Below are positions 5,819-49,127 of a stretch of DNA of 64,000 nucleotides, piece after piece. Numbering within the stretch: position 1 is the first letter of the stretch; every line of letters starts with the position of its first letter. A model generated the notes under the pieces. It saw only the letters and a list, made by a program, of their open reading frames with translations. It was not told where the DNA came from and made no database searches. Origin of the DNA: Burkholderia sp. SRS-46. GTDB taxonomy: Bacteria > Pseudomonadota > Gammaproteobacteria > Burkholderiales > Burkholderiaceae. The translations under genes and the position numbers were made by a program. The DNA lies in contig NZ_PTXL01000008.1 of NCBI RefSeq assembly GCF_004343775.1, positions 372,001 through 436,000 on the forward strand, given 5' to 3'.

Positions 5819-7198
5819 ATGAATTCCCAAACCGACCTCCCCCCCGCCCAGTCCGGCGCCGCGGCCCCCGCGGCATCCGACGATTCGACCGCGAGCCACG
5901 CCCAGTTCGTCGACTGGATGCGGTCCGTCGCGCCCTATATTCACAAGTTCCGCAACAGCACGTTCGTCGTCGGTTTCGGCGGCGAGGTCGTGCATCAGGG
6001 GCTCCTCAGCGCACTGGTGTCCGACATCGCGCTGCTGCAGGCGATGGGCATCCAGATCGTGCTGGTGCACGGCTCGCGGCCGCAGGTCGAGGAGCAGCTG
6101 AGCCTGCACGGTGTCGAATCCGAGTTTTCGCACGGGCTGCGCATCACCGATGCGCGCGCGCTCGAATCCGCGAAGGAAGCGGCCGGCGAAGTGCGCCTCG
6201 ACATTGAGGCCGCGATCAGCCAGGGCCTGCCGAACTCGCCGATGGCGCACGCGCACATCAGCGTGGTGTCGGGCAATTTCGTGACGGCGCGGCCGGTCGG
6301 GATTCTCGACGGGGTCGATTTCGCGCACACGGGCGTCGTGCGCAAGATCGACGCCGAATCGATCCGCCATTCGCTCGCGAGCCGCAAGCTCGTGCTGCTG
6401 TCGCCGCTCGGCTTCTCGCCGACCGGCGAGGCGTTCAACCTGTCGATGGAGGATGTCGCGTCCGCCGCCGCGATCGCGCTGCGCGCCGACAAGATCATCT
6501 TCCTGACCGACGCGCCCGGCATCGTCGACGACGAAGGCGAGCTGATCCGCGAAATGTCGCTCGACGCGGCCGCCGAGCTGCTCGATTCGGGCAATGTCCA
6601 GGGCGACGACGCGTTCTTCCTGAAGCACTCGATCCGCGCGTGCCGCGGCGGCGTGACCCGTGCGCACCTGGTGCCGCAGACCCTCGACGGCAGCGTGCTG
6701 CTCGAGCTGTTCCTGCACGACGGCGTCGGCACGATGATCTCGTACGAGAACCTCGAAAGCCTGCGCGAGGCGACGCCGGACGACGTCGGCGGCATCCTGT
6801 CGCTGATCGAGCCGCTCGAGTCGGACGGCACGCTGGTACGCCGTGGCCGCCACCAGATCGAACGCGACATCGACCACTTCTCGGTGATCGAGCACGATGG
6901 CGTGCTGTTCGGCTGCGCGGCGCTGTATCCGTACCAGCAGGAAAAGATCGGCGAGATGGCGTGCCTCACCGTCGCACCGGAGGCGCAAGGCTCCGGCGAC
7001 GGCGAGCGCCTGCTCAAGCGCATCGAGCAGCGCGCGCGGGCGCGCGGCCTCACGCACATCTTCGTGCTGACGACGCGCACCGAGCACTGGTTCCTCAAGC
7101 GCGGCTTCGTGAAGGTGAGCGTCGACGACCTCCCGGAAGACCGCCGCAAACTCTATAACTGGCAGCGCAAGTCGCTCGTGCTGATGAAGCAGCTCTGA
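5819..7198 (+). CDS. argA: amino-acid N-acetyltransferase (N-acetylglutamate synthase) ArgA
   Basis: A 459-residue protein with the two-domain layout of classical NAGS. An N-terminal amino-acid-kinase-like domain comes first ([47 protein letters not shown]). A C-terminal GNAT domain follows ([50 protein letters not shown]). It makes N-acetylglutamate from glutamate and acetyl-CoA, the first step of arginine synthesis. The N-terminus is about 30 residues longer than the E. coli protein. The ATG at 5819 lacks a Shine-Dalgarno and lies just after a TATAAT, so a leaderless mRNA or an internal start near M34 should be considered. yggX follows 44 bp downstream. Confidence 0.95.
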
Positions 7199-21829: not shown

Positions 21830-22369
21830 ATGACACTGTCCTCTCCACATACGTTGTGGCTCACCGGCCTGAGCGGCTCCGGTAAGTCGACGCTCGCACA
21901 GCAGGTCGCTGCGCGCCTGCGTGCGCGCGGCCTGCCGGTCTGCATTCTCGACGGCGACGAGCTGCGCGCCGGCGTGTCGCCGGATCTCGGCTTCAAGCGT
22001 GAAGACCGCGCCGAGAACTGCCGCCGCACGGCCGAAATCGCGAAGCTGCTCAACAGCCAGGGCATCACGGTCATCGTCGCGCTGATCTCGCCGTACGAAG
22101 CCGACCGGCAACGCGCGCGACACATCATCGGCGACGAACGCTTCATCGAGGTCTACCTGAAGACCGACATCGCAACCTGCTCCGCACGCGACCCCAAGCG
22201 CCTCTACGCCAAGGCGATCACCGGGCAGACGCGTCAATTCACCGGCATCTCGGATCCCTACGAGCCGCCCGAGCATCCCGACCTCGTCATCGAAACCGGA
22301 CAGATGGACGTCGCGTCCTCGGTCGAGTGCATCATGGCATTCGATCAACAGCGATTCGCGTCGGTGTGA
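21830..22369 (+). CDS. cysC: adenylylsulfate (APS) kinase, stand-alone
   Basis: A 179-residue APS kinase making PAPS from APS and ATP. The P-loop GLSGSGKST is at residues 13-21. The substrate region DGDELRAGVSPDLGFKREDRAENCRRTAEIAKLLNSQGITVIVALISPY follows, with YLKTDIATCSARDPKRLYAKA and FTGISDPYEPPEHPDLVIET after it. Length is normal for the family. A second APS kinase exists in this window fused to CysN (45745-47643). Here there is no cysD or cysN partner and no obvious sulfotransferase neighbour. It lies between the tRNA-Val island and the polyamine operon behind a 280-bp divergent region that is locally AT-rich. Confidence 0.92.
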   Translation: MTLSSPHTLWLTGLSGSGKSTLAQQVAARLRARGLPVCILDGDELRAGVSPDLGFKREDRAENCRRTAEIAKLLNSQGITVIVALISPYEADRQRARHIIGDERFIEVYLKTDIATCSARDPKRLYAKAITGQTRQFTGISDPYEPPEHPDLVIETGQMDVASSVECIMAFDQQRFASV

Positions 22370-35328: not shown

Positions 35329-36093
35329 TTACGCGCGCGTCCACGCGACGCATGCCGCGTAGCCGGGCGCCGCGTCGAGCCAAGCGGCGTCGAACGCGGC
35401 CACGCCGGCCGCGGGCGCGGCGGGCGCGACGATTTCCACCGCCGGCGTCGCCGCGTCGCGCGGCGGCACCACCGCGAACGCCTGCAGCCCGCCGGCAATG
35501 CCGGTGCCGAGCGCCTTCAGCAGCGCTTCCTTCGCGGCCCAGACGCGCATGAACGCGTCCGCGCGCGCAGCATCCGGCCGAGCGTCGAGATAGGCGGCCT
35601 CACCGGGCGCGCACACCTCGCGCGACAGCGCGCGCCAGTCGATCGCACGGTCGGCGCGCTCGATGTCGACGCCGACCCGGCATGCGGCCGACCACGCGAT
35701 CAGCGCATGATCGCCGGCATGCGACACGTTGAAATCGAGCGATGCGCGGTGCGCGGGATCGAGCGCGGGACGGCCGGCCTCGCCGACGGCGATCACGACG
35801 TCCCGCGGCGCAATGCCGAGCCGCGCACCGAGCACGTCGCGCAGCGCGATGCGCGTGCCGGCGCTGCGCACCGCGTCCTCCCGGCGCAGGAAGCGCGCCG
35901 CGCGCGCCCGTTCGGCGTCGCTCAGGCCCGCATAGGCGGGCGACGCGAGCGGCGCATCCCAGTCGAAATCGACGCGCACGACCCGCACGCCCGCGCGGCG
36001 CGCGGCCGGCGGCACGTCGATTGCATGCGCACGATAGGCACGCGGGGCGCGGAGCGCGTCGCTGGACGAACCGGAATCGGGAGAGCTGGACAT
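35329..36093 (-). CDS. 4'-phosphopantetheinyl transferase (Sfp type)
   Basis: A 254-residue Sfp-type PPTase that would load phosphopantetheine onto carrier proteins of polyketide, peptide or fatty-acid synthases. Core motifs: FNVSHAGDH at residues 121-129, GVDIE at 141-145 (metal-binding acids), and WAAKEALLKALGTGI from 185. The N-terminus (first 35 residues) is Ser/Ala-rich and the exact start is uncertain, as no strong ribosome site precedes 36093. No carrier protein or synthase lies nearby, so it is probably a general PPTase. Confidence 0.9.
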   Translation of the reverse strand: MSSSPDSGSSSDALRAPRAYRAHAIDVPPAARRAGVRVVRVDFDWDAPLASPAYAGLSDAERARAARFLRREDAVRSAGTRIALRDVLGARLGIAPRDVVIAVGEAGRPALDPAHRASLDFNVSHAGDHALIAWSAACRVGVDIERADRAIDWRALSREVCAPGEAAYLDARPDAARADAFMRVWAAKEALLKALGTGIAGGLQAFAVVPPRDAATPAVEIVAPAAPAAGVAAFDAAWLDAAPGYAACVAWTRA

Positions 36094-39848: not shown

Positions 39849-39865
39849 TTAGTCCGTTCCGACGA
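39849..39865. promoter_or_regulatory. copy 1 of the TTAGTCCG-NN-CGGACGA dyad
   Basis: TTAGTCCGTTCCGACGA, 107 bp upstream of the SRPBCC start and 87 bp upstream of the photolyase start. It differs at one defined position from the dyad consensus seen at 44693, 44740 and 47675 in the sulfation locus. Confidence 0.6.
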
Positions 39866-39972
39866 TTTTTCGTCGCGCCCGTGCGCCTACGCTCGGTGTC
39901 GGGTGAGCCGCGCCTCACCCGCCGCGCGCGAGCGCGCCGGCGCACCCGATCCCCACTGCCTCCATCACGCCC

Positions 39973-40452
39973 ATGACCAAAGCATCCAATCTCGTCACCT
40001 CGATCACCGTCGACATCGACGCGCCGGCGTCGCTCGTCTGGGAAGTGCTCACCGACTTCCCGCGCTATGCCGAATGGAACACGTTCTGCGTCGGTCTCGA
40101 AACGACCGGCCGGCTCGGCGACTTCGTCCACATGCAGGTGCGGATTCCGGGCACCGGCGACGTGATCCCCGTCAGCGAGACGCTCGTCGCCTACGAGCCC
40201 GAACGCCTGCTGTCGTGGGAGCAGCGCCCCACCGACGCCAACAAGGACGCCGCGCGCCGCGACCAGTACCTCGAGGCCGACGGCCCCGGGCGCTGCCGCT
40301 ACTTCACGACCGACCAGTTCCTCGGCGTCAACGCGGACACGATCATGCGCAACCACGGCGCGTGGGTGCAGCGCGGCTTCGACCAGTGCGCGCGCGACGT
40401 GAAGGCGCGCGCGGAAGCGCTGCACGCGGCGCGCAGCCGCCGGCGCGCGTGA
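39973..40452 (+). CDS. SRPBCC (START/Bet v 1-like) family protein
   Basis: A 159-residue SRPBCC-fold protein. It shows ITVDIDAPASLVWEVLTDFPRYAEWNTFCVGLETTGRLGDFVHMQV, then VSETLVAYEPERLLSWEQRP and CRYFTTDQFLGVNADTIMRNHGAWVQRGFDQCARDVKARAE. Such proteins bind hydrophobic ligands or act as polyketide cyclases/hydratases; none of those roles is proven by this sequence. It converges on the sulfotransferase operon at a shared terminator and has the locus dyad upstream, so it may handle the same hydrophobic metabolite. Confidence 0.85.
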   Translation: MTKASNLVTSITVDIDAPASLVWEVLTDFPRYAEWNTFCVGLETTGRLGDFVHMQVRIPGTGDVIPVSETLVAYEPERLLSWEQRPTDANKDAARRDQYLEADGPGRCRYFTTDQFLGVNADTIMRNHGAWVQRGFDQCARDVKARAEALHAARSRRRA

Positions 40453-40464
40453 GCCGTTGAGCAT

Positions 40465-40487
40465 GCCCCGCGCGAATCGCGCGGGGC
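40465..40487. terminator. hairpin between convergent SRPBCC and DHH genes
   Basis: Perfect 10-bp stem GCCCCGCGCG / CGCGCGGGGC with loop AAT in the 49-bp gap between two convergent genes. It lacks a T-run but its place fits a bidirectional terminator. Confidence 0.6.
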
Positions 40488-40501
40488 GTGGGGCGCGCCC
40501 G

Positions 40502-41482
40502 TCAATCGAGCCGGAACGCCGCCTCGAAGCGCGCGGCGAACGCGTCGAAGTCCGCTTCCGGCAGATGGTTGATGCCGCCCGCGCGCTTGCGTCCGCCGCC
40601 GGTCGCGAAGCCACGGCAGAAATCGTCCGCGCCGAGCGGCCGGCCGTCGGGCACGCGCACGCTGACGACGAGCCCGCCGTCCGCGCGCGGCGACAGCACC
40701 GCGAGCGCGGCACCGGGCGCGTTGCGCATCCGCTCGTTCGCGAGCATGCCGGTCGCGCGCCGCGCCCACGCGTGATCGGGCATCAGGACCAGCGTCGCGC
40801 CCGGCACCTCGCGCAGCGGCGCGAGCGCGCACGCGCGCGCCATGTCGTCGCGATAGCCGTCGCGCAGCGCCGCGAACACCGGCGTGCCGCGCACGAAGTC
40901 GCGCGGATCGGTGCACGGCAGCATCGCGTCGGCGAGCGCCGCCGGATCGAAATGCAGATCGCCGACGCACTCGCCGTATGCGTTGTAGTTCAGGTAAAGC
41001 CCGAGCTCCGCGAGCAGGCCGCGCTCGGCCGCGTCGATCCCGTGTTCGCGCGCGAGCGCGCCGCCGAGCGCCGGCAGCTCGTCGCCGAACGCCGCGACGA
41101 TCGCCCAGCGCACGTGCCGGCCGCCGAGGTAGCGGTTCACGAGCGCGCTCGTGCACACGTCCGCCGCCGTGTCGATATAGGCGTCGAATCGCGCATCGCC
41201 GGGCAGCGCGCCCGCGAAGTGATGGTCGAAATAGCGCACCGTCACGCCGTCGCGCAGCAGCCGCGCGCAGGCGTCGCGGTTCTGGTCGTGCGACACGTCG
41301 AGCACGGTGACGCGATCGCCCGCGCGCGCGTCGATCCGCTCGAGCAGCCGGATGTCGCGCTTCACGCCCGTCACGAGCGTGCCGTGCACGCCCTCCGCGA
41401 GCCGCAATTGCTGAAGTGCGCACAGGCCGTCCGCGTCGCCGTTGAACGCGAAGACGTGCTGCCCGCTGTCGTTGTCCTGCAT
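40502..41482 (-). CDS. DHH-family phosphoesterase-like protein
   Basis: A 326-residue protein with the DHH hallmarks. FAFNGDADGLCALQQL carries DADG at residues 16-19, VLDVSHDQNRD follows, and YFDHHFAG carries DHH at 86-88. The C-terminal GGRKRAGGINHLPEADFDAFAARFEAAF resembles the DHHA1 substrate domain. DHH enzymes cut phosphoester bonds of small nucleotides, including 3'-phosphoadenosine 5'-phosphate (NrnA/CysQ-like activity). As the last gene of a sulfotransferase operon, degradation of the PAP by-product is an attractive but unproven role. Start MQDND at 41482 was chosen for the GGAG 9 nt upstream; MEQRIMQDND at 41497 is possible. Confidence 0.78.
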   Translation of the reverse strand: MQDNDSGQHVFAFNGDADGLCALQQLRLAEGVHGTLVTGVKRDIRLLERIDARAGDRVTVLDVSHDQNRDACARLLRDGVTVRYFDHHFAGALPGDARFDAYIDTAADVCTSALVNRYLGGRHVRWAIVAAFGDELPALGGALAREHGIDAAERGLLAELGLYLNYNAYGECVGDLHFDPAALADAMLPCTDPRDFVRGTPVFAALRDGYRDDMARACALAPLREVPGATLVLMPDHAWARRATGMLANERMRNAPGAALAVLSPRADGGLVVSVRVPDGRPLGADDFCRGFATGGGRKRAGGINHLPEADFDAFAARFEAAFRLD

Positions 41483-41499
41483 GATCCGTTGCTCCATCT

Positions 41500-42291
41500 T
41501 CAAGGCATGTAATCGCCGCCGTTCGCGTCGAGCGTCGCGCCCGTCACCGCGTTCGCGTAATCGGACGCGAGAAACAGCGCGGCGCGCGCGCAGTCGTCGT
41601 CGGTCGGCAGCCGCGCGAGCGCGAGGTTCGATGCGATCGGCGCGATGATCTGCGCCTCCGGCACGCCGTACTCGGCAGCGGCCTGCCGGAAATACCCCTG
41701 CGTCGGCACGCCCCACATCCACCCCATGTGGATGCTGTTCGCGCGGATGCCGTGCACGCCAAGCTCCCGCGCCAGGTATTTTGCCGCAACCGCGAGCGCC
41801 CCCTTCGAAACAGCGTAGCCGGCTTCCCCTGCAAACGGCTTGCGGGTCGCCTGCGTGTTGATCATCACGATCGCGCCGCGCCGCTGCCGCTTCATGTGGG
41901 GCACGATCTCCTGCGTGAGCGCCATCGTGCCGAACACGTTGGTGTCGAACACGGCGCGCCAGCCGTCCAGGTCCGCCGCGTCGACCGGCTCCGGAAACGC
42001 GCCGTGCACGAACGCGCTGTTCACGAGCGCGTCGATCCGGCCGAAGCGCGCGATCGCCGCGTCGGCGAGCTGCCGGCATTGCGCGCGCTCGGTGATGTCG
42101 GTCGTCACCTTCAGCACGTCGCAGTCGACGCCGAGCGCGGCGATCCGCGCCGCGGCATCGTCGAGCTTCTCCGCCGTGCGCGCCGCGACCACCACGCCGC
42201 GCGCGCCCTCGCGCGCCGCCTCGACGGCGAGCTTCACGCCGAGCCCCGGCCCGATCCCGGAAATCACGACGATCTTGTCCTTCAGCAACAT
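41500..42291 (-). CDS. short-chain dehydrogenase/reductase (SDR)
   Basis: A 263-residue classical-length SDR. Cofactor motif SGIGPGLG is at residues 11-18 and NSA at 91-93 (usually NNAG). Catalytic Tyr159 and Lys163 are in GYAVSKGAL. The segment where the catalytic Ser is expected reads MINTQATRKP, with no serine, so either a Thr replaces it or activity is altered. It ends NAVTGATLDANGGDYMP, typical of the family. It follows the sulfotransferase by 37 bp and precedes the DHH gene by 17 bp. It would oxidise or reduce a hydroxyl/keto group on the operon's substrate. Confidence 0.87.
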   Translation of the reverse strand: MLLKDKIVVISGIGPGLGVKLAVEAAREGARGVVVAARTAEKLDDAAARIAALGVDCDVLKVTTDITERAQCRQLADAAIARFGRIDALVNSAFVHGAFPEPVDAADLDGWRAVFDTNVFGTMALTQEIVPHMKRQRRGAIVMINTQATRKPFAGEAGYAVSKGALAVAAKYLARELGVHGIRANSIHMGWMWGVPTQGYFRQAAAEYGVPEAQIIAPIASNLALARLPTDDDCARAALFLASDYANAVTGATLDANGGDYMP

Positions 42292-42328
42292 GGGTTGTCT
42301 CCTGGTTGTAGAGATGAAGCGGATTGCG

Positions 42329-43522
42329 TCAGCCGCCCTGCCGCAGATGACGCGCGCGATACGCGGCGAAATCGCGCACGAGCTGCGCATCGGTGAAGCC
42401 GAAGCGCGCGATCGAATAGTCATGCGCGGCGCGCTTGTCGCGGCCGTTGCGCACGAGCCATGCGTCGATCGCCGCGCGCCGGTCCGCATCGAGCGGCATC
42501 CGCGCGAACCGGTACACGGCTTGCGCCACGCCGAGCGGATCGGACACGGTGTCCTCGAAGCGCACGTCGAGAAAGCGCTCGGCCGGCAGCGCGTCGCGCG
42601 CGGCCATCGCGGCGCCGATCGCGCGCGCCATCCCCGCGTTCCATTGCGCGCCGACCACGCGCGGGTCCGGATCGTCCGCGTACATCTGCCACAGCGTGTG
42701 TGCCATGCTCGCCATCGACGGAATCGTCTGCGCCGGATCGCGGTGCGTGAGCACGACCTGCGCGCACGGAAACACGCGGCACAGCACGTCGAGCGCGTAC
42801 AGGTGCTGCGGCGTCTTCAGCAGCCAGCGCTCGCCCGTCGCGACGCCGCGCCGCGCCTTCTGCCATTGCAGGAATTGCAGCATCCGCTTCAGGTACGTGT
42901 AGACCGGCGTGAGATCCTGCTTCGCGAGCCACGCGGTATAGCCCGGCACGTTCGCGTACGAATCCATCGCGCACACGAACGCGTGCTCCATCAGCATGAA
43001 CTCCTCGTCGGCGAGCATCGCGTCGAGCGGATGGATCGACAGGATCTGCGGGATGCAGTCGATCATCTGCGCGACCTCGGCCTGCGCGCGCGCGATGCGC
43101 ACGGCGGGCGCGGCCAGCGTCTCGCCGGCGAGCGGCGCCGGATAGCGCGTCTCCCACCACGCGGCCGAATGAAAGCGCGGATCGACGGCCAGCAGGCGCT
43201 GCAGCAGCGTCGTGCCCGTGCGCGGCAGGCCGACGATCACGAGCGGATCGTCGATCGCGATGTCGGCGATCTCCGGATGACGCCGGAAGTAATCCTCGAC
43301 GACGAGCCGGTTCGCGAGCTGGCCGACGAGCTTCTCGCGCATCATCCGCGCGCCGCGCGCGGACAGGTTCGCGTCGTCGACGAGCGACGCGCACATCACG
43401 TCGAGCGCTTCGCGATACGGGCCGTCGCCGAACGCGGTGAGCCCCCGCGCGCGCGCGACGGCCTCGGCGATCAGCGCGTCGGCGTCGAGCAGCGTGCGCG
43501 CCATGTCGATCGATGCGTTCAT
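42329..43522 (-). CDS. PAPS-dependent sulfotransferase family protein
   Basis: A 397-residue sulfotransferase (Sulfotransfer_3 type). The 5'-phosphosulfate loop PLVIVGLPRTGTTLLQRLLAVDPRFHSAAWWETRYPAPL is at residues 93-131. A 3'-phosphate-binding strand/helix follows in FPCAQVVLTHRDPAQTIPSMASMAHTLW. The N-terminal 90 residues are helical. It would move the sulfuryl group from PAPS to a hydroxyl of a small, probably hydrophobic acceptor. The ATG overlaps the DUF1214 stop (ATGA at 43519-43522), giving translational coupling. PAPS can be made by CysD/CysNC encoded divergently 1.3 kb away. Confidence 0.88.
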   Translation of the reverse strand: MNASIDMARTLLDADALIAEAVARARGLTAFGDGPYREALDVMCASLVDDANLSARGARMMREKLVGQLANRLVVEDYFRRHPEIADIAIDDPLVIVGLPRTGTTLLQRLLAVDPRFHSAAWWETRYPAPLAGETLAAPAVRIARAQAEVAQMIDCIPQILSIHPLDAMLADEEFMLMEHAFVCAMDSYANVPGYTAWLAKQDLTPVYTYLKRMLQFLQWQKARRGVATGERWLLKTPQHLYALDVLCRVFPCAQVVLTHRDPAQTIPSMASMAHTLWQMYADDPDPRVVGAQWNAGMARAIGAAMAARDALPAERFLDVRFEDTVSDPLGVAQAVYRFARMPLDADRRAAIDAWLVRNGRDKRAAHDYSIARFGFTDAQLVRDFAAYRARHLRQGG

Positions 43523-44634
43523 GCGGCCTCCTTCAGCGCGGCGAGCTTGACCACGCGCGTGCGCGGATGCACGGGCTGCGCCGCGCCCACCCAACGCCAG
43601 CAGATCGTGCCGGTGCGATGCCCGGCCGTATCGAGCCAGTTCGCGCGGCCGGGCGCGGGGTTCGCGGCGGCGACCACCACCGTCACGCCGCCGCCGGCGT
43701 TCGGCTTCGCGCCGTGCTTGTTCACGCACACGTCGAAATACCGATAGTCGAGCGACTCCATCCAGTAGTTGTTCAGCTGCACGTTCCAGAAATCGCAGTC
43801 GGGCACGCGCTCGACGTCGATCACGAGCGCCTCGTCGTCGGCGAGCGACCAGCGCGAGTGGTAGTAGTAAATGTTCGGATCGCCGCCGACCGACTGGCAC
43901 AGCGCCTGGTCCGCGGGCGGCAGCGCGTTGGTGTGCGGCCGGTAGCTCGCGGCCCAGTCGGCGAACAGCCGCGCCGTCTGCTCGACGAACTGCGCGGCGC
44001 GCGCGAGGCCGCCCTGCAGCGCGAGCGGATCGAGCGGCGCCGGGCGGCCCGCCGCGTCGAGGCGTTCGATCTTCAGTTGCGCGGGCGTTTCCGTGCGCCG
44101 GTCGAGGAAGGTCTGGCGCACCAGCAGCGCGTTGGTGCCGGGCTCCATGCGGACCCAGTTGCCCGCGCGCGGCGTGCCGCTCAGCACGATCTCGAAGCTG
44201 CCGTCCGGCGCGATCTCGAGCTGCTTCGCGTCGATAAAACCCGTCTGCAGCATCTTGCCGTCGGTCTCGTAGCCGCCCTTCTGCGTGCCGAAGCTCAGGT
44301 ACGCGACGCTGCCGCGCCGCCCCGTCACGCGGTATGCGCAGCGGCCATCGAGCCGCGCGTACTGGTACAGGTTGTCGGGGTTGTCCGCGCCGATCTTCGC
44401 GGTCTCGTGCGACGGCGAGAAGAAGCCGGGCCACGCGCCGTCCGCGAATTCCACATGCATCTCGAGCGCGATGCGCATCAGCCGGCTCAGGTAGCGGAAG
44501 CCTTCCGCGCGGGTGAGCGGGTCGTCCGGCGCGTCGGCGCGCAGGATCTGCTGCCCGCTGCGTTTCAGGGTGTCGCAGAACGCGGCCCAGGCCTCGCCCG
44601 AAAGCAGCTGCGTGGCGCGTGTGTCGTCCGTCAT
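43519..44634 (-). CDS. DUF1214 domain-containing protein
   Basis: A 371-residue protein with a DUF1214-type C-terminal half: YYYHSRWSLADDEALVIDVERVPDCDFWNVQLNNYWMESLDYRYFDVCVNKHGAKPNAGGGVTVVVAAANPAPGRANWLDTAGHRTGTICWRWVGA. The N-terminal half includes RYLSRLMRIALEMHVEFADGAWPGFFSPSHETAKIGADNPDNLYQYARLDG. No enzyme activity is established for the family; it often lies beside SDR and sulfotransferase genes. The start at 44634 has GGAG 7 nt upstream. It is the first gene of a four-gene operon, reading away from cysD across a promoter with a large inverted repeat. Confidence 0.8.
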   Translation of the reverse strand: MTDDTRATQLLSGEAWAAFCDTLKRSGQQILRADAPDDPLTRAEGFRYLSRLMRIALEMHVEFADGAWPGFFSPSHETAKIGADNPDNLYQYARLDGRCAYRVTGRRGSVAYLSFGTQKGGYETDGKMLQTGFIDAKQLEIAPDGSFEIVLSGTPRAGNWVRMEPGTNALLVRQTFLDRRTETPAQLKIERLDAAGRPAPLDPLALQGGLARAAQFVEQTARLFADWAASYRPHTNALPPADQALCQSVGGDPNIYYYHSRWSLADDEALVIDVERVPDCDFWNVQLNNYWMESLDYRYFDVCVNKHGAKPNAGGGVTVVVAAANPAPGRANWLDTAGHRTGTICWRWVGAAQPVHPRTRVVKLAALKEAA

Positions 44635-44679
44635 GTGTCGTCTCCGCCAGTGGTCGAGCACCCACGTTAGCGCGCCGTC

Positions 44680-44769
44680 GCGGGGCGGCTCTTCGTCCGG
44701 GCGGACTAAGGAGAGATCCCCGCCATGCGCGGCGCGGCTTTAGTCCGGTCGGACGAAGAGCCGCCCCGC
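44680..44769. promoter_or_regulatory. large inverted repeat with two dyads (copies 2 and 3) in the DUF1214/cysD divergent promoter
   Basis: Arms of 30 nt (44680-44709 and 44740-44769) are complementary at 28 positions and separated by 30 nt. Each arm holds one 17-bp dyad: TCGTCCGGGCGGACTAA at 44693-44709 (minus-strand reading TTAGTCCGCCCGGACGA) and TTAGTCCGGTCGGACGA at 44740-44756. The sites lie about 60-75 bp before the DUF1214 start and 93-109 bp before cysD, well placed for one regulator to control both directions. Confidence 0.8.
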
Positions 44770-44848
44770 CCCCGCTCGCTACCGTTGGCGTCATGCACGA
44801 AACGCCGCACATGTCGCGCGGCGCCGGCATGAGACAAGGAGACGAACG

Positions 44849-45745
44849 ATGTTGACCCACTTGGAGCGGCTGGAGGCCGAGAGCATCCACATCATGCGCG
44901 AGGTGGTCGCGGAGAGCGAGAACCCGGTGATGCTGTATTCGATCGGCAAGGACAGCTCGGTCATGCTGCATCTCGCGATGAAGGCGTTCCATCCCGCGAA
45001 GCCGCCCTTTCCGCTGCTGCACGTCGATACCACCTGGAAATTCCGCGAGATGATCGCGTTTCGCGACGCAACGGCCGAGCGCCTCGGCCTCGACCTGCGC
45101 GTGCACGTGAACCCCGACGGCGTCGCACAGGACATCAACCCGTTCACGCACGGCTCGGCCGTGCACACCGACGTGTGGAAGACCCAGGGGCTCAAGCAGG
45201 CGCTCGACTTCCACGGCTTCGACGCCGCGTTCGGCGGCGCGCGCCGCGACGAGGAGAAATCGCGCGCGAAGGAGCGCATCGTGTCGCTGCGCTCGGAGCA
45301 GCACCGCTGGGACCCGAAGCGGCAGCGCCCGGAACTCTGGTCGCTGTACAACGCGCGCAAGCGCAAGGGCGAAAGCCTGCGCGTGTTCCCGATCTCGAAC
45401 TGGACCGAGCTCGACATCTGGCAATACATCCGGCTCAACGACATCCCGATCGTGCCGCTCTACTTCGCGAAGGAGCGCCCTGTCGTCGAACACGACGGCG
45501 CACTGATCATGGTGGACGACGCACGTTTTCCGCTGCGTGAAGGTGAAGTGCCGCAGCTGCGCAAGGTGCGCTTTCGCACGCTCGGCTGCTATCCGCTGAC
45601 GGGCGCGATCGACAGCGACGCGACGTCGCTCGACGACATCCTGCGCGAGATGCGCGACACGCGCACGTCCGAGCGGCAAGGACGGCTGATCGACAGCGAT
45701 TCGGCCGGTTCGATGGAGAAGAAGAAACAGGAGGGCTATTTCTGA
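44849..45745 (+). CDS. cysD: sulfate adenylyltransferase subunit 2 (CysD/NodP-like)
   Basis: A 298-residue ATP sulfurylase small subunit. PP-loop SIGKDSS is at residues 31-37. [52 protein letters not shown] and [17 protein letters not shown] are canonical, as is the end [11 protein letters not shown]. With CysN it makes APS from sulfate and ATP, driven by GTP. It overlaps the cysNC start by one base (TGATG). Divergence from a sulfotransferase operon and linkage to a LuxR regulator suggest this set supplies sulfation, like NodP/NodQ, rather than cysteine synthesis. Confidence 0.95.
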
Positions 45746-47643
45746 TGGCACACGCACTCACCGCGCGCGACGACATCGCGCATCCCGCCCCGGACACGCA
45801 GCAGAAGGACCTGCTGCGCTTCATCACCTGCGGCAGCGTCGACGACGGCAAGAGTACGCTGATCGGCCGCCTGCTGTACGAGTCGAACATGCTGTTCGAC
45901 GACCAGCTGACGCAGCTCGAAGCCGATTCGAAAAAGCTCGGCACGCAAGGCGGCGAACTCGATTTCGCGCTGCTCGTCGACGGCCTGTCGGCCGAGCGCG
46001 AGCAAGGCATCACGATCGACGTCGCGTACCGCTTCTTCGCGACCGCGCGGCGCAAGTTCATCGTCGCCGACACGCCCGGCCACGAGCAGTACACGCGCAA
46101 CATGATCACCGGCGCGTCGACCGCCGACCTCGCGGTGATCCTGGTCGACGCGCGCAAGGGCGTGCTCACGCAGACGCGCCGCCACAGCCACCTCGTCGCG
46201 CTGATCGGCATCAAGCGTGTCGTGCTCGCGATCAACAAGATGGATCTGGTCGACTACGACCGCGCGGTGTTCGAACGCATCGACGCCGACTACCGCGCGT
46301 TCGCCGCCGAACTCGGCCTGGCCGACATCGTCAGCATCCCGCTGTCCGCGCTGCGCGGCGACAACGTGATCGCGGCGGGCGCGCGGATGCCGTGGTACGA
46401 CGGCCCGACGCTGATGCAGCATCTCGACGACCTGCCGCTCGCCGCGCGCGTCACGCGCGACGAACCGTTCCGGTTGCCCGTGCAGTGGGTCAACCGTCCG
46501 CACCTGAACTTCCGCGGCTACGCGGGCAGCATCGCATCGGGCGAGATCCGCGTGGGCGAGCGCGTGCGCGTGCTGCCGTCCGGCAAGGAAAGCCGGGTCG
46601 CGACGGTGATCACGCAAAGCGGCGAAAGCGACGTCGCGCGCGCGGGCGACGCGGTGACGCTCACGCTCGCCGACGAGATCGACATCAGCCGCGGCGACAT
46701 GATCGCGCGCGCCGACGCGCCGCCCGAGGTCGCCGACCAGTTCGAGGCGACGCTCGTGTGGATGCACGACGAACCGCTGCTGCCGGGCCGGCCGTATCTC
46801 GTGAAGCTCGGCACGCAGACGGTCGGCGCGACCTGCGCGACGCCGAAGTACAAGGTCGACGTGAACACGCGCGAGCATCTCGCCGCGCGCACGCTCGCGC
46901 TGAACGAAATCGGCGTGTGCAACCTGAGCCTCGACCGGCCGGTCGCGTTCGACCCGTACGCGCGGAACCGCCATACGGGCGGCTTCATCGTGATCGACCG
47001 CTTCACCAACGACACGGTCGGCGCGGGGATGCTGCACTTCGCGCTGCGCCGCGCGCACAACGTGCACTGGCAGGCGGTCGACGTCGACCGGGCCGCGCGC
47101 GCCGCGCAGAAGCGCCAGACGCCGCGCATCGTGTGGCTGACCGGGTTGTCCGGCGCGGGCAAGTCGACGATCGCGAACCTCGTCGAGCAGCGGCTGCACG
47201 CGCTCGGCCGGCACACCTACCTGCTCGACGGCGACAACGTGCGGCACGGGCTGAACCGCGACCTCGGCTTCACCGAAGCCGACCGCGTCGAGAACATCCG
47301 GCGCGTCGCGGAGGTCGCGCGGCTGATGGTCGATGCGGGGCTGATCGCGCTCGTGTCGTTCATCTCGCCGTTCCGCGCGGAGCGCGACATGGCGCGCGCG
47401 CTCGTCGGGCCCGGAGAGTTCGTCGAGGTGTTCGTCGACACGCCGCTCGCGGTGGCCGAGGAACGCGACCCGAAGGGGCTCTACCGGAAAGCGCGGCGCG
47501 GCGAGCTGAAGCACTTCACCGGCATCGATTCGCCATACGAAGCACCCGAGCGGCCGGAGCTGCGCATCGACACGCTCGCCGAGACGCCGGACCAGGCAGC
47601 GGCGCGCATCGTCGCGTACCTGCTGCGCGAGCACGACGCCTAG
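45745..47643 (+). CDS. cysNC: bifunctional sulfate adenylyltransferase GTPase subunit / APS kinase (CysNC, NodQ-like)
   Basis: A 632-residue fusion. The N-terminal EF-Tu-like GTPase has G1 GSVDDGKST (30-38), DTPGHEQ (109-115) and NKMD (164-167), followed by the beta-barrel domains of CysN. From about residue 455 an APS kinase begins. Its P-loop GLSGAGKST is at 467-475, followed by [57 protein letters not shown] and [20 protein letters not shown]. The protein carries sulfate activation through to PAPS, the sulfotransferase donor. This architecture is that of rhizobial NodQ. The APS kinase repeats the activity of the stand-alone cysC at 21830. Confidence 0.96.
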
Positions 47644-47674
47644 CCGCGACGCGCGAACGCCTGGCCCGCGCCGC

Positions 47675-47691
47675 CTACTCCGTTCGGATGA
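47675..47691. promoter_or_regulatory. copy 4 of the dyad, upstream of the LuxR gene
   Basis: CTACTCCGTTCGGATGA, 67 bp upstream of the LuxR-type regulator start in the short gap after cysNC. It keeps the TCCG-NN-CGGA core and matches 12 of the 15 fixed consensus positions. Confidence 0.55.
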
Positions 47692-47757
47692 CGCGGGCCG
47701 CCGGCGGATCCGTATGCTCGACCGGGCCCCCTCATTCCGATCAAGGAGACTGCGAGC

Positions 47758-48954
47758 ATGCGGACCGCCGTTCCGTCCGACGCCCACCCCGGCACCGCCG
47801 CGCCCGACTGCTTCGACGACGCGGCGTGGTCGGCGCGCGACCTCGGCGCGTGGCTCGCCCTCGTGTATCGCGGGCCGACCGAGGCGACGCCGTGGGCCGG
47901 CTTTCTCGAGGCGATCCGCGCGCAGCTCGACGCGAGCTTCACGACGCTCGTGCTGCGCAGCCCGGGCAGCGCGCGGCGCGGCCTGATCATCAACGCGTCC
48001 GCGCACGGCCCGCTGCTGCCGGGCGAGCCGTCGTACAGCGAGCAGTTCTATGCGCTGTGCCCGTTCCTCGACCAGCCCGCCGGCGAAGTGTTCACCGCCG
48101 ACGCGCTGTTCGGCGATGCCGCGTGGCGCGCGCACGATTTCTACCGCGCGTACCTGCAGCCGCTCGACCTGCGCTACGTGCTCGGCGCGAACCTGCGCGG
48201 CGAGCACGGCGTCGAATGCGCGTTCTTCGTGAGCCGCGCGCATCGCGGCCGCGATTTCGACACGGCCGAACGCGCGCGGGTCGCGGTGCTGCTGCCGCAC
48301 CTGCAGCGCGCGGTCGAGCTGCACGCGGCGCTCGACGTGCTCGACGCGGAGCGCGCGCTGTATGCGGGCACGATCGACCGGCTCGACGTCGGCACCGCGA
48401 TCGTCGACGAGGACGGCCGCGTGCTGAAGCGCAACCGCATCGCGGAGCGCCTGTTCGAGCGGCAGGACGGCCTGTGCCTGCGCCAGGAGCGGCTGCACGC
48501 GTCGTGCCCGCTCGACGAGCGCCGGCTGCAGAAGGCGCTCCAGGCCGCGCTCGAGCACTACCGCGCGGGCGCGCTCGGCCGCATCGAGGCCACCACGCTG
48601 GCGCGCAGCGGCGGCGCGATGCCGCTCAACGTGCTGCTGCGGCCGCTCGCGCCCTATCGCGGCGCCGACGACCGGCGGCACCGGCCAGCCGTCGCGGTGT
48701 TCGTGCGCGACCCGACCTCGTCGCCGCAGACCTCGCGCGACATGCTGCACAAGCTGTTCCGCCTCACGCCGATGGAGACCGAGATCGCGCTGCTGCTGGT
48801 CGACGGCCTCACGCTCGACGAAGCCGCCGCCGCGACCGGCATCACGAAGAACACCGCGCGCGCGCACCTGCGCGGGATCTTCGCGAAGACGGGGGCGACG
48901 CGCCAGGCCGTGCTCGTGAAGACGCTGCTCAACAGCGTGGTGTCGATGGCCTGA
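47758..48954 (+). CDS. LuxR-type HTH transcriptional regulator
   Basis: A 398-residue regulator. Its C-terminal GerE/LuxR helix-turn-helix is FRLTPMETEIALLLVDGLTLDEAAAATGITKNTARAHLRGIFAKTGATRQAVLVKTLL. The N-terminal 330 residues include a PAS-like region around LDVGTAIVDEDGRVLKRNRIAERLFERQDGLCLRQERL; there is no autoinducer-binding domain or phospho-acceptor domain I can see. AAGGAG lies 9 nt before the ATG. It follows cysNC by 114 bp and has the locus dyad upstream, as do both arms of the sulfation locus, so it is the likely regulator and probably autoregulated. Confidence 0.88.
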   Translation: MRTAVPSDAHPGTAAPDCFDDAAWSARDLGAWLALVYRGPTEATPWAGFLEAIRAQLDASFTTLVLRSPGSARRGLIINASAHGPLLPGEPSYSEQFYALCPFLDQPAGEVFTADALFGDAAWRAHDFYRAYLQPLDLRYVLGANLRGEHGVECAFFVSRAHRGRDFDTAERARVAVLLPHLQRAVELHAALDVLDAERALYAGTIDRLDVGTAIVDEDGRVLKRNRIAERLFERQDGLCLRQERLHASCPLDERRLQKALQAALEHYRAGALGRIEATTLARSGGAMPLNVLLRPLAPYRGADDRRHRPAVAVFVRDPTSSPQTSRDMLHKLFRLTPMETEIALLLVDGLTLDEAAAATGITKNTARAHLRGIFAKTGATRQAVLVKTLLNSVVSMA

Positions 48955-48990: not shown

Positions 48991-49127
48991 ATGTCATACG
49001 TCACAAGACATTAAATCCACCGCCTTTGGCCCATCAACCCGCGCTGACATCAGGAAAATCACGGATTCCCGGGTAAACCCGTGACCCGGAGCTCCGCGTC
49101 GAAGCGTAACATGTCATACGACGACAT
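48991..49127. promoter_or_regulatory. paired ATGTCATACG sites upstream of the MFS gene
   Basis: ATGTCATACG occurs at 48991-49000 and again at 49111-49120. Each is followed by GACAT, giving dyads ATGTC-N11-GACAT (48991-49011) and ATGTC-N7-GACAT (49111-49127). The style is that of GntR-family operators. The second lies 59 bp before the chosen MFS start. Confidence 0.45.

Follow-up and report, generated by a model that had tools for sequence, protein, structure and literature searches.

A 64,000-nt stretch of the Burkholderia sp. SRS-46 genome (contig NZ_PTXL01000008.1; hereafter the window) carries a gene for a LuxR-type regulator beside genes for a sulfotransferase of the 3′-phosphoadenosine-5′-phosphosulfate (PAPS) type and for sulfate activation, and copies of one dyad motif stand before these genes. 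The question raised by this locus is whether the motif ties the genes into one regulon and, if so, what a dedicated sulfation module would be for. The reading that we favor, and hold to be fairly probable, is that a LuxR-type activator resembling TeiR/TesR drives a PAPS-cycle module for a steroid or ring-degradation intermediate.

Four dyad sites and their promoters

A first-pass annotation of the window had placed copies of the motif before the SRPBCC gene, at both divergent promoters between the DUF1214 gene and cysD, and before the LuxR-type gene, and a motif search of the window found all four where that annotation had put them (Table 1). The sites are distinguished by quality, place and conservation rather than by raw number. 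Matches were expected to cluster here in a genome-wide scan, which holds for the best ones: the 8.59-Mb genome has three places with at most one mismatch, every one of them among the window sites. When a consensus was derived from the four sites (YTASTCCRNNYSGAYGA), its exact matches in the genome were these four and no others (control, 2); the test is partly circular, since the consensus came from the same sites. Among all positions of the window, the four sites ranked 1, 2, 4 and 8 with a matrix built from six distinct sites of other genera and 1, 2, 3 and 5 with a matrix built from 10 sites; because the training sites had first been located via the motif of the window and include one that equals the 44693 site letter for letter, these ranks give support rather than a blind test. 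The 47675 site is weak by sequence, with 1.75 (6-site matrix) or 0.6 (10-site matrix) equally good places expected per 64 kb as computed on order-2 Markov sequence, and it was accepted because it is conserved across Burkholderia loci, not because of its score.

A search with the regulator as query gave 21 related Burkholderia loci. With presence defined as a tblastn match of 40% identity or more across 60% of the query, cysD, cysNC and the DUF1214, sulfotransferase, short-chain dehydrogenase/reductase (SDR) and regulator genes were found in all 21, the DHH gene in 20 and the SRPBCC gene in 19; in two loci the missing genes are absent or the sequence stops close to them. Phylogenetic footprinting, a check proposed in the first-pass annotation, agreed with the sites, which recur before the same genes: both divergent sites are kept in all 21 loci, the SRPBCC site in all 19 that extend to the SRPBCC gene, and the site of the regulator gene (luxR) at consensus level in 20 of 21, the copy in L035 being divergent. 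The constant parts in the alignments are TAGTCC and GGACGA (TAGTCC-N4-GGACGA), with variable inner bases and with the variant TACTCC..GGATGA at the luxR-gene site. From the core first described as TCCG-NN-CGGA, the dyad itself stood but the inner G..C did not, most relatives having TCCA at the divergent and SRPBCC sites. The consensus occurs in 39 of 65 Burkholderia genomes, namely in 34/34 with DUF1214 and in 5/31 without it. Three of these five (G093, G175, G195) hold relics of the module (L117, L118, L119) that keep the SRPBCC-side site, the photolyase gene, DHH, SDR fragments (SDR not found in L118 at threshold) and a major facilitator superfamily (MFS) gene, and that have lost the sulfotransferase, DUF1214, cysD, cysNC and luxR.

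The divergent sites usually lie 47-48 nt apart; the distance is about 222 nt in L023 (about 6720-6960), where both sites and the spacing to the -10 are kept, and in G063 (C27 21487-21725). In the window, the divergent sites are extended by a common AAGAGCCGCCCCGC flank (44680-44709 and 44740-44769), so that two nearly identical arms, each about 30 bases long, face in opposite directions; the other Burkholderia loci are without a flank shared between both promoters.

All four promoters have the TAGTCC half distal and the GGACGA half toward the gene. The sequence TAnnnT beginning 21-23 nt past the site was found at 86/86 promoters (20 SRPBCC, 22 DUF1214, 22 cysD and 22 luxR, window included) and at 0.3% of 20,000 random places in the window, a rough yardstick given that such places are mostly coding sequence. 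If TAnnnT is the -10 box, the site centre would lie at -42 to -44, over the -35 region, and no consensus -35 was found at the module promoters. LuxR-type class II activators have a dyad centred near -42.5 and overlapping the -35, and this placement is seen at the four window promoters as judged from their predicted -10 boxes. At the DUF1214 gene, the predicted -10 is very close to the longest open reading frame (ORF) start at 44661, which suggests that translation starts at 44634 instead.

It has also to be asked whether the sites might be chance matches or structural repeats without a regulatory role. Speaking for this, loose matches are no commoner than expected: the window holds six matches with at most three mismatches (two of them being the divergent sites read on the opposite strand) against a chance mean of 2.68, and 7 of 100 shuffles reach six, which is not significant; genome-wide, 19 places have at most two mismatches compared with 56 for the backwards pattern, so that looser copies are not enriched there either, and the loose-match count was dropped as proof of the motif. 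Chance is nevertheless strongly disfavored, and we give it next to no credence, as the four promoters keep their sites in up to 21 loci, with fixed -10 spacing, and the sites are lost together with the module and recur before an unlinked gene (below). Two places with one or two mismatches, C19:400467 and C20:646121, were rejected because their surroundings lack module-like genes, and a plasmid search using the divergent promoter region gave no match.

That the three transcription units and the regulator gene form one unit, as first suggested, is upheld by the conserved site, orientation and -10 spacing and by the regulator gene traveling with the module elsewhere. The SRPBCC-side site had also been described as lying before a photolyase gene; SRPBCC stands as a member but the photolyase probably does not, since the 39849 site is oriented away from the photolyase gene, which persists in L117-L119, where most of the module is lost. 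The MFS gene at 49081 was rejected as well, being kept in the same relics without most of the module and having no site before it in the window scan.

In some species the regulon appears to extend to genes unlinked to the module. Nine genomes have extra sites before one SnoaL-like gene (PF13577), which by protein search is present in 13 of the 65 Burkholderia genomes, all 13 with DUF1214, and is absent from the window's own genome. Its site is exact in 9/13 and has one mismatch in 2/13, while one gene is without a site and one has a partial match. In G176, an extra site precedes a glyoxalase-like gene and an SDR gene, the product of which has Rv2002 and 3-alpha,20-beta-hydroxysteroid dehydrogenase as best PDB matches. 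Outside Burkholderia, G087 has relatives of the SnoaL-like protein (72%) and of the G176 SDR (82%) side by side and adjoining the DHH gene, with a nearby site that points at the neighboring gene; a relative of the G176 SDR (79%) adjoins DHH in G261, and a one-mismatch site is directed at a SnoaL relative (44-46%) in G101 and G133.

A LuxR-type regulator and a probable PAPS cycle

We next considered which protein would act on the sites and what its targets would do. The helix-turn-helix (HTH) segment of the LuxR-type protein gave weak PDB matches to VraR, EL222 and GerE, and its residues N365, T366, R368, H370, L371 and R372 are invariant in 24 relatives. We infer that this protein binds the dyad sites: it would contact the 17-bp imperfect dyad over the -35 of the four promoters and recruit RNA polymerase as a class II activator, its targets being the SRPBCC gene, the DUF1214-sulfotransferase-SDR-DHH operon, the cysD-cysNC operon and its own gene. 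Control of its own gene is likely because its promoter carries a site, though the weakest of the four. That the sites instead belong to another regulator (the paralogue on contig C8 described below, or an AraC or LysR neighbor), or that the LuxR-type protein represses by blocking the -35, seems to us decidedly improbable. One C8 promoter carries a one-mismatch relative of the site, so that paralogues may share the motif; yet the regulator gene lies within the module in Burkholderia and in the other genera with a 57-60% relative, whereas, in the stretches examined from outside Burkholderia, the module is found without its LysR, AraC and MFS neighbors. A site over the -35 would fit repression as well, and a LuxR-type repressor of a Comamonas steroid gene is cited in excerpts of PMC6678751 and PMC8700777, but the lack of a consensus -35 at these promoters favors activation.

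With a LuxR-type activator as the preferred reading, its targets would supply a complete PAPS cycle, in which CysD and CysNC make PAPS, the sulfotransferase uses it and the DHH protein probably clears the resulting 3′-phosphoadenosine 5′-phosphate (PAP). The ATP sulfurylase subunits and the adenosine 5′-phosphosulfate (APS) kinase domain of CysD and CysNC all exceed curated cut-offs (Table 1), and the sulfotransferase matches PDB 2zq5 over 372 residues, nearly its full length (E 5.7e-49). The DHH protein matched no Pfam family at E 0.001. Its DHH and GGGR motifs are invariant in 12/12 relatives, and its model (pLDDT 77.5) gave 34 PDB matches at E ≤ 0.001, DHH phosphoesterases among them, including NrnA 4ls9 and, in second place with TMq 0.47, the PAP phosphatase 8a8k, mostly with long root-mean-square deviations and low TM; on this fold comparison it is probably a PAP phosphatase with an NrnA-like fold. 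A second CysN, encoded on contig C19 of the same genome (52% identity), lacks the kinase part and adjoins CysH, which has the CC and CxxC cysteines that we take to be the signature of APS reductases. With such a CysH, assimilation should not need PAPS, which, together with the kinase-less C19 CysN, suggests that the APS kinase of CysNC serves another purpose.

Table 1. Predicted sites, -10-like elements and genes of the module (window coordinates)
Feature	Position	Strand	Remarks
Predicted regulator site before SRPBCC gene	39849..39865	+	TTAGTCCGTTCCGACGA; 1 mismatch to first-described motif
-10-like TACGCT (SRPBCC)	39888..39893	+	22 nt after site; same offset in 20/20 (window + 19 loci)
SRPBCC protein, 159 aa (Polyketide_cyc2)	39973..40452	+	PF10604, 50.1 bits
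DHH-type phosphoesterase, 331 aa; probable PAP phosphatase	40502..41497	-	invariant NGDADG, YFDHH, GGGR; fold match
SDR oxidoreductase, 263 aa	41500..42291	-	NCBIfam PRK07890, 361.5 bits
PAPS-type sulfotransferase, 397 aa (Sulfotransfer_3)	42329..43522	-	PF13469, 141.9 bits (cut-off 27)
DUF1214 protein, first gene of left operon	43519..44634	-	PF06742, 33.6 bits; PDB 6ans, E 1.2e-237
-10-like TAACGT (DUF1214)	44664..44669	-	23 nt after site; TAnnnT at 22-23 nt in 22/22 (window + 21 loci)
Predicted regulator site before DUF1214 gene	44693..44709	-	TTAGTCCGCCCGGACGA; 0 mismatches to first-described motif
Predicted regulator site before cysD	44740..44756	+	TTAGTCCGGTCGGACGA; 0 mismatches to first-described motif
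-10-like TACCGT (cysD)	44780..44785	+	23 nt after site; 22/22 at 23 nt
CysD, sulfate adenylyltransferase small subunit	44849..45745	+	PRK12563, 568.7 bits (cut-off 413)
CysNC, sulfate adenylyltransferase GTPase fused to APS kinase	45745..47643	+	PRK05506, 1066.3 bits (cut-off 715)
Predicted regulator site before LuxR-type gene	47675..47691	+	CTACTCCGTTCGGATGA; 3 mismatches, all outside core
-10-like TATGCT (luxR gene)	47713..47718	+	21 nt after site; 22/22 at 21 nt
LuxR-type regulator, 398 aa; predicted activator	47758..48954	+	C-terminal HTH, about residues 330-395

Elsewhere in the window, a free-standing APS kinase is encoded at 21830-22369 (+), about 22 kb from the module; it is 47% identical to the CysNC kinase part, and no obvious sulfotransferase is near it in the ORF list. 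An ORF at 35329-36093 (-) resembles a 4′-phosphopantetheinyl transferase as judged by eye, no search having been made.

Linkage to steroid degradation

The substrate of the module was approached through its relatives. Regulator relatives were sought in a 150-genome sample of the family and DUF1214 in a 398-genome sample of the phylum, where it occurs in five genomes. The former gave, as the best relatives outside Burkholderia, proteins of 58-60% identity in G087, G113, G045, G138 and G145 and of 41% in G101 and G133, and a further one (57%, G261) was reached through DUF1214. Module genes adjoin the regulator in all eight genomes. In five of the eight (G087, G045, G138, G145, G261), the contig in question also bears HsaA- and HsaC-like genes, accompanied by KstD-, luciferase-like monooxygenase-, FadD3- or KshA-like genes. 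In G494, which belongs to another class, the sulfotransferase, SDR, DUF1214 and SRPBCC genes lie between HsaA/HsaC- and KstD-like genes without the regulator, and G231 has only the triad of sulfotransferase, SDR and DUF1214. In G101, a flavin reductase was noted, along with a hydrolase and a hydratase resembling those of meta-cleavage. Three regulator paralogues each were found in these regions of G087, G045 and G138, counting only matches that span 80% of the query. A related motif pattern is enriched in the other-genus regions, with 43 places in 380 kb compared with 6 for the reversed pattern; 30 of the 43 are near a same-strand gene start, and some represent a single palindrome read twice. 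The initial picture of a free-standing sulfation regulon did not survive this comparison, as relatives in other genera place the unit with steroid degradation. Because the module sits there with steroid genes and LuxR-type paralogues, a steroid or ring-degradation intermediate is the most likely substrate, and on the same ground the regulator is probably a TeiR/TesR-like steroid-responsive activator. A steroid or one of its breakdown products would then act as inducer, raising both the PAPS cycle and the regulator.

Burkholderia have been predicted to degrade steroids (excerpts of PMC4810484), and contig C8 of the window's own genome holds a steroid locus of the 9,10-seco type. It encodes KshA (KshA_C 250.6 bits, cut-off 23.3), KstD-like (below the equivalog cut-off) and FadD3-like proteins, DUF1329 and MMPL proteins, HsaA-like and HsaC-like proteins with 78 and 69% identity to those of G045, and three enzymes of a meta-cleavage tail (aldolase, dehydrogenase, hydratase). 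A paralogue of the regulator (44% identity) adjoins a luciferase-like monooxygenase gene there. L080 (G000 C8), L081, L082 and L089 show variant sites that belong to the paralogue: three genomes have TTACTCCAAACAGACGA preceding the luciferase-like monooxygenase gene, and two have ATCGTCCGATCGGATGA close to where the paralogue itself starts. Of the 65 Burkholderia genomes, 34 have DUF1214 and 36 have KshA, with both in 33, DUF1214 alone in one (G193, 82% completeness), KshA alone in three and neither in 28 (Fisher's test, 6e-14).

Several observations weigh against this steroid-linked activator. The Fisher statistic ignores the kinship of the genomes. None of the 21 Burkholderia module loci, nor the window's own locus, holds a steroid marker gene; the markers of G113 sit on a different contig, and none were found in G101, G133 and G231 within the stretches examined. 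The HsaA, HsaC and KstD matches fall under NCBIfam equivalog cut-offs. The GerE/HTH match of the regulator (PF00196, residues 336-387) reaches 19.9 bits, under the Pfam cut-off of 23.5, and its predicted structure is poor (pLDDT 53.8, too low for a fold search). The free-standing APS kinase means that CysNC is not the sole possible PAPS source. At the SnoaL promoters, TAnnnT at 21-23 nt was found in 0/11, and a block CACCAT is conserved instead. Finally, the C8 contig has no copy of a stricter pattern within one mismatch (control, 2); given that its promoters lack the strict motif, the window regulator probably serves the sulfation module and the C8 paralogue the C8 genes.

Part of this evidence could be read as a regulon under LuxR-type control whose substrate is not a steroid but some other lipid, or a secondary metabolite or xenobiotic phenol, for which the module was recruited in Burkholderia. 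The separation of the module from steroid markers in all 21 loci fits such a substrate, as does the breadth of the Sulfotransfer_3 family, and the three genomes having KshA without DUF1214 indicate that steroid degradation does not need the module. We regard a non-steroid substrate as unlikely, though, in view of the presence of KshA in 33 of the 34 module genomes and the position of the module with steroid genes in the five other-genus genomes listed above and, without a regulator, in G494.

Meaning and relation to known systems

The steroid reading provides a functional setting for proteins of no known role, namely DUF1214 (whose PDB homologue 6ans is uncharacterized), the SRPBCC protein and the SDR, and raises the question why steroid degraders would sulfate something en route. 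It is conceivable, though on balance doubtful, that aerobic steroid degraders carry a dedicated, steroid-induced sulfation step in catabolism with its own PAPS supply and PAP disposal. If so, sulfation of a steroid or ring-cleavage intermediate might make a leaving group, trap the intermediate in the cell or detoxify it, and the sulfotransferase-SDR-DUF1214 triad would be a core that reaches beyond Burkholderiaceae into a second class of Pseudomonadota (G494, G231) and perhaps into mycobacteria. A literature search confined to open-licence papers found no sulfation module under a LuxR-type steroid regulator.

Gut Bacteroides have steroid sulfotransferases that act on sterols and occur with PAPS genes. 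They resemble the window in pairing a sulfotransferase with its own PAPS supply and differ in being anaerobes that modify the steroid, with no known link to aerobic ring degradation or to a LuxR-type regulator. A second likeness concerns mycobacteria: the structure matched by the sulfotransferase, 2zq5, is presumably that of M. tuberculosis Rv3529c, and we take Rv3531c to be a DUF1214-like protein. Rv3529c, Rv3530c and Rv3531c appear as neighboring genes, one for a possible oxidoreductase, in the excerpted cholesterol gene list of PMC6429209. The likeness lies in adjacent genes of a steroid catabolic set, the match to the triad being in part our assumption; the difference is that they belong to another phylum and were compared by description only.

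Closer to the regulator, the pdc progesterone cluster of Caenibius tardaugens has a LuxR-type regulator adjoining a luciferase-like monooxygenase (excerpts of PMC12239570, the main text of which does not use the word sulfotransferase). The 44% paralogue on C8 has the same neighbor, whereas, of the paralogues, it is the window regulator that accompanies the sulfation module. TeiR/TesR of Comamonas testosteroni is a LuxR-type activator of testosterone degradation, and TeiR is reported to act through kinase activity (excerpts of PMC6678751, PMC8700777). The window regulator is likewise LuxR-type and a predicted activator, with relatives among HsaA-, HsaC- and KstD-like genes, but would control a sulfation module that is separate from the steroid locus. 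The excerpts of PMC6678751, PMC8700777 and PMC12239570 give no DNA site for LuxR-type steroid regulators. Thus, while such regulators were already known, what this locus adds to them is a concrete candidate site, with its position, its orientation and a list of promoters.

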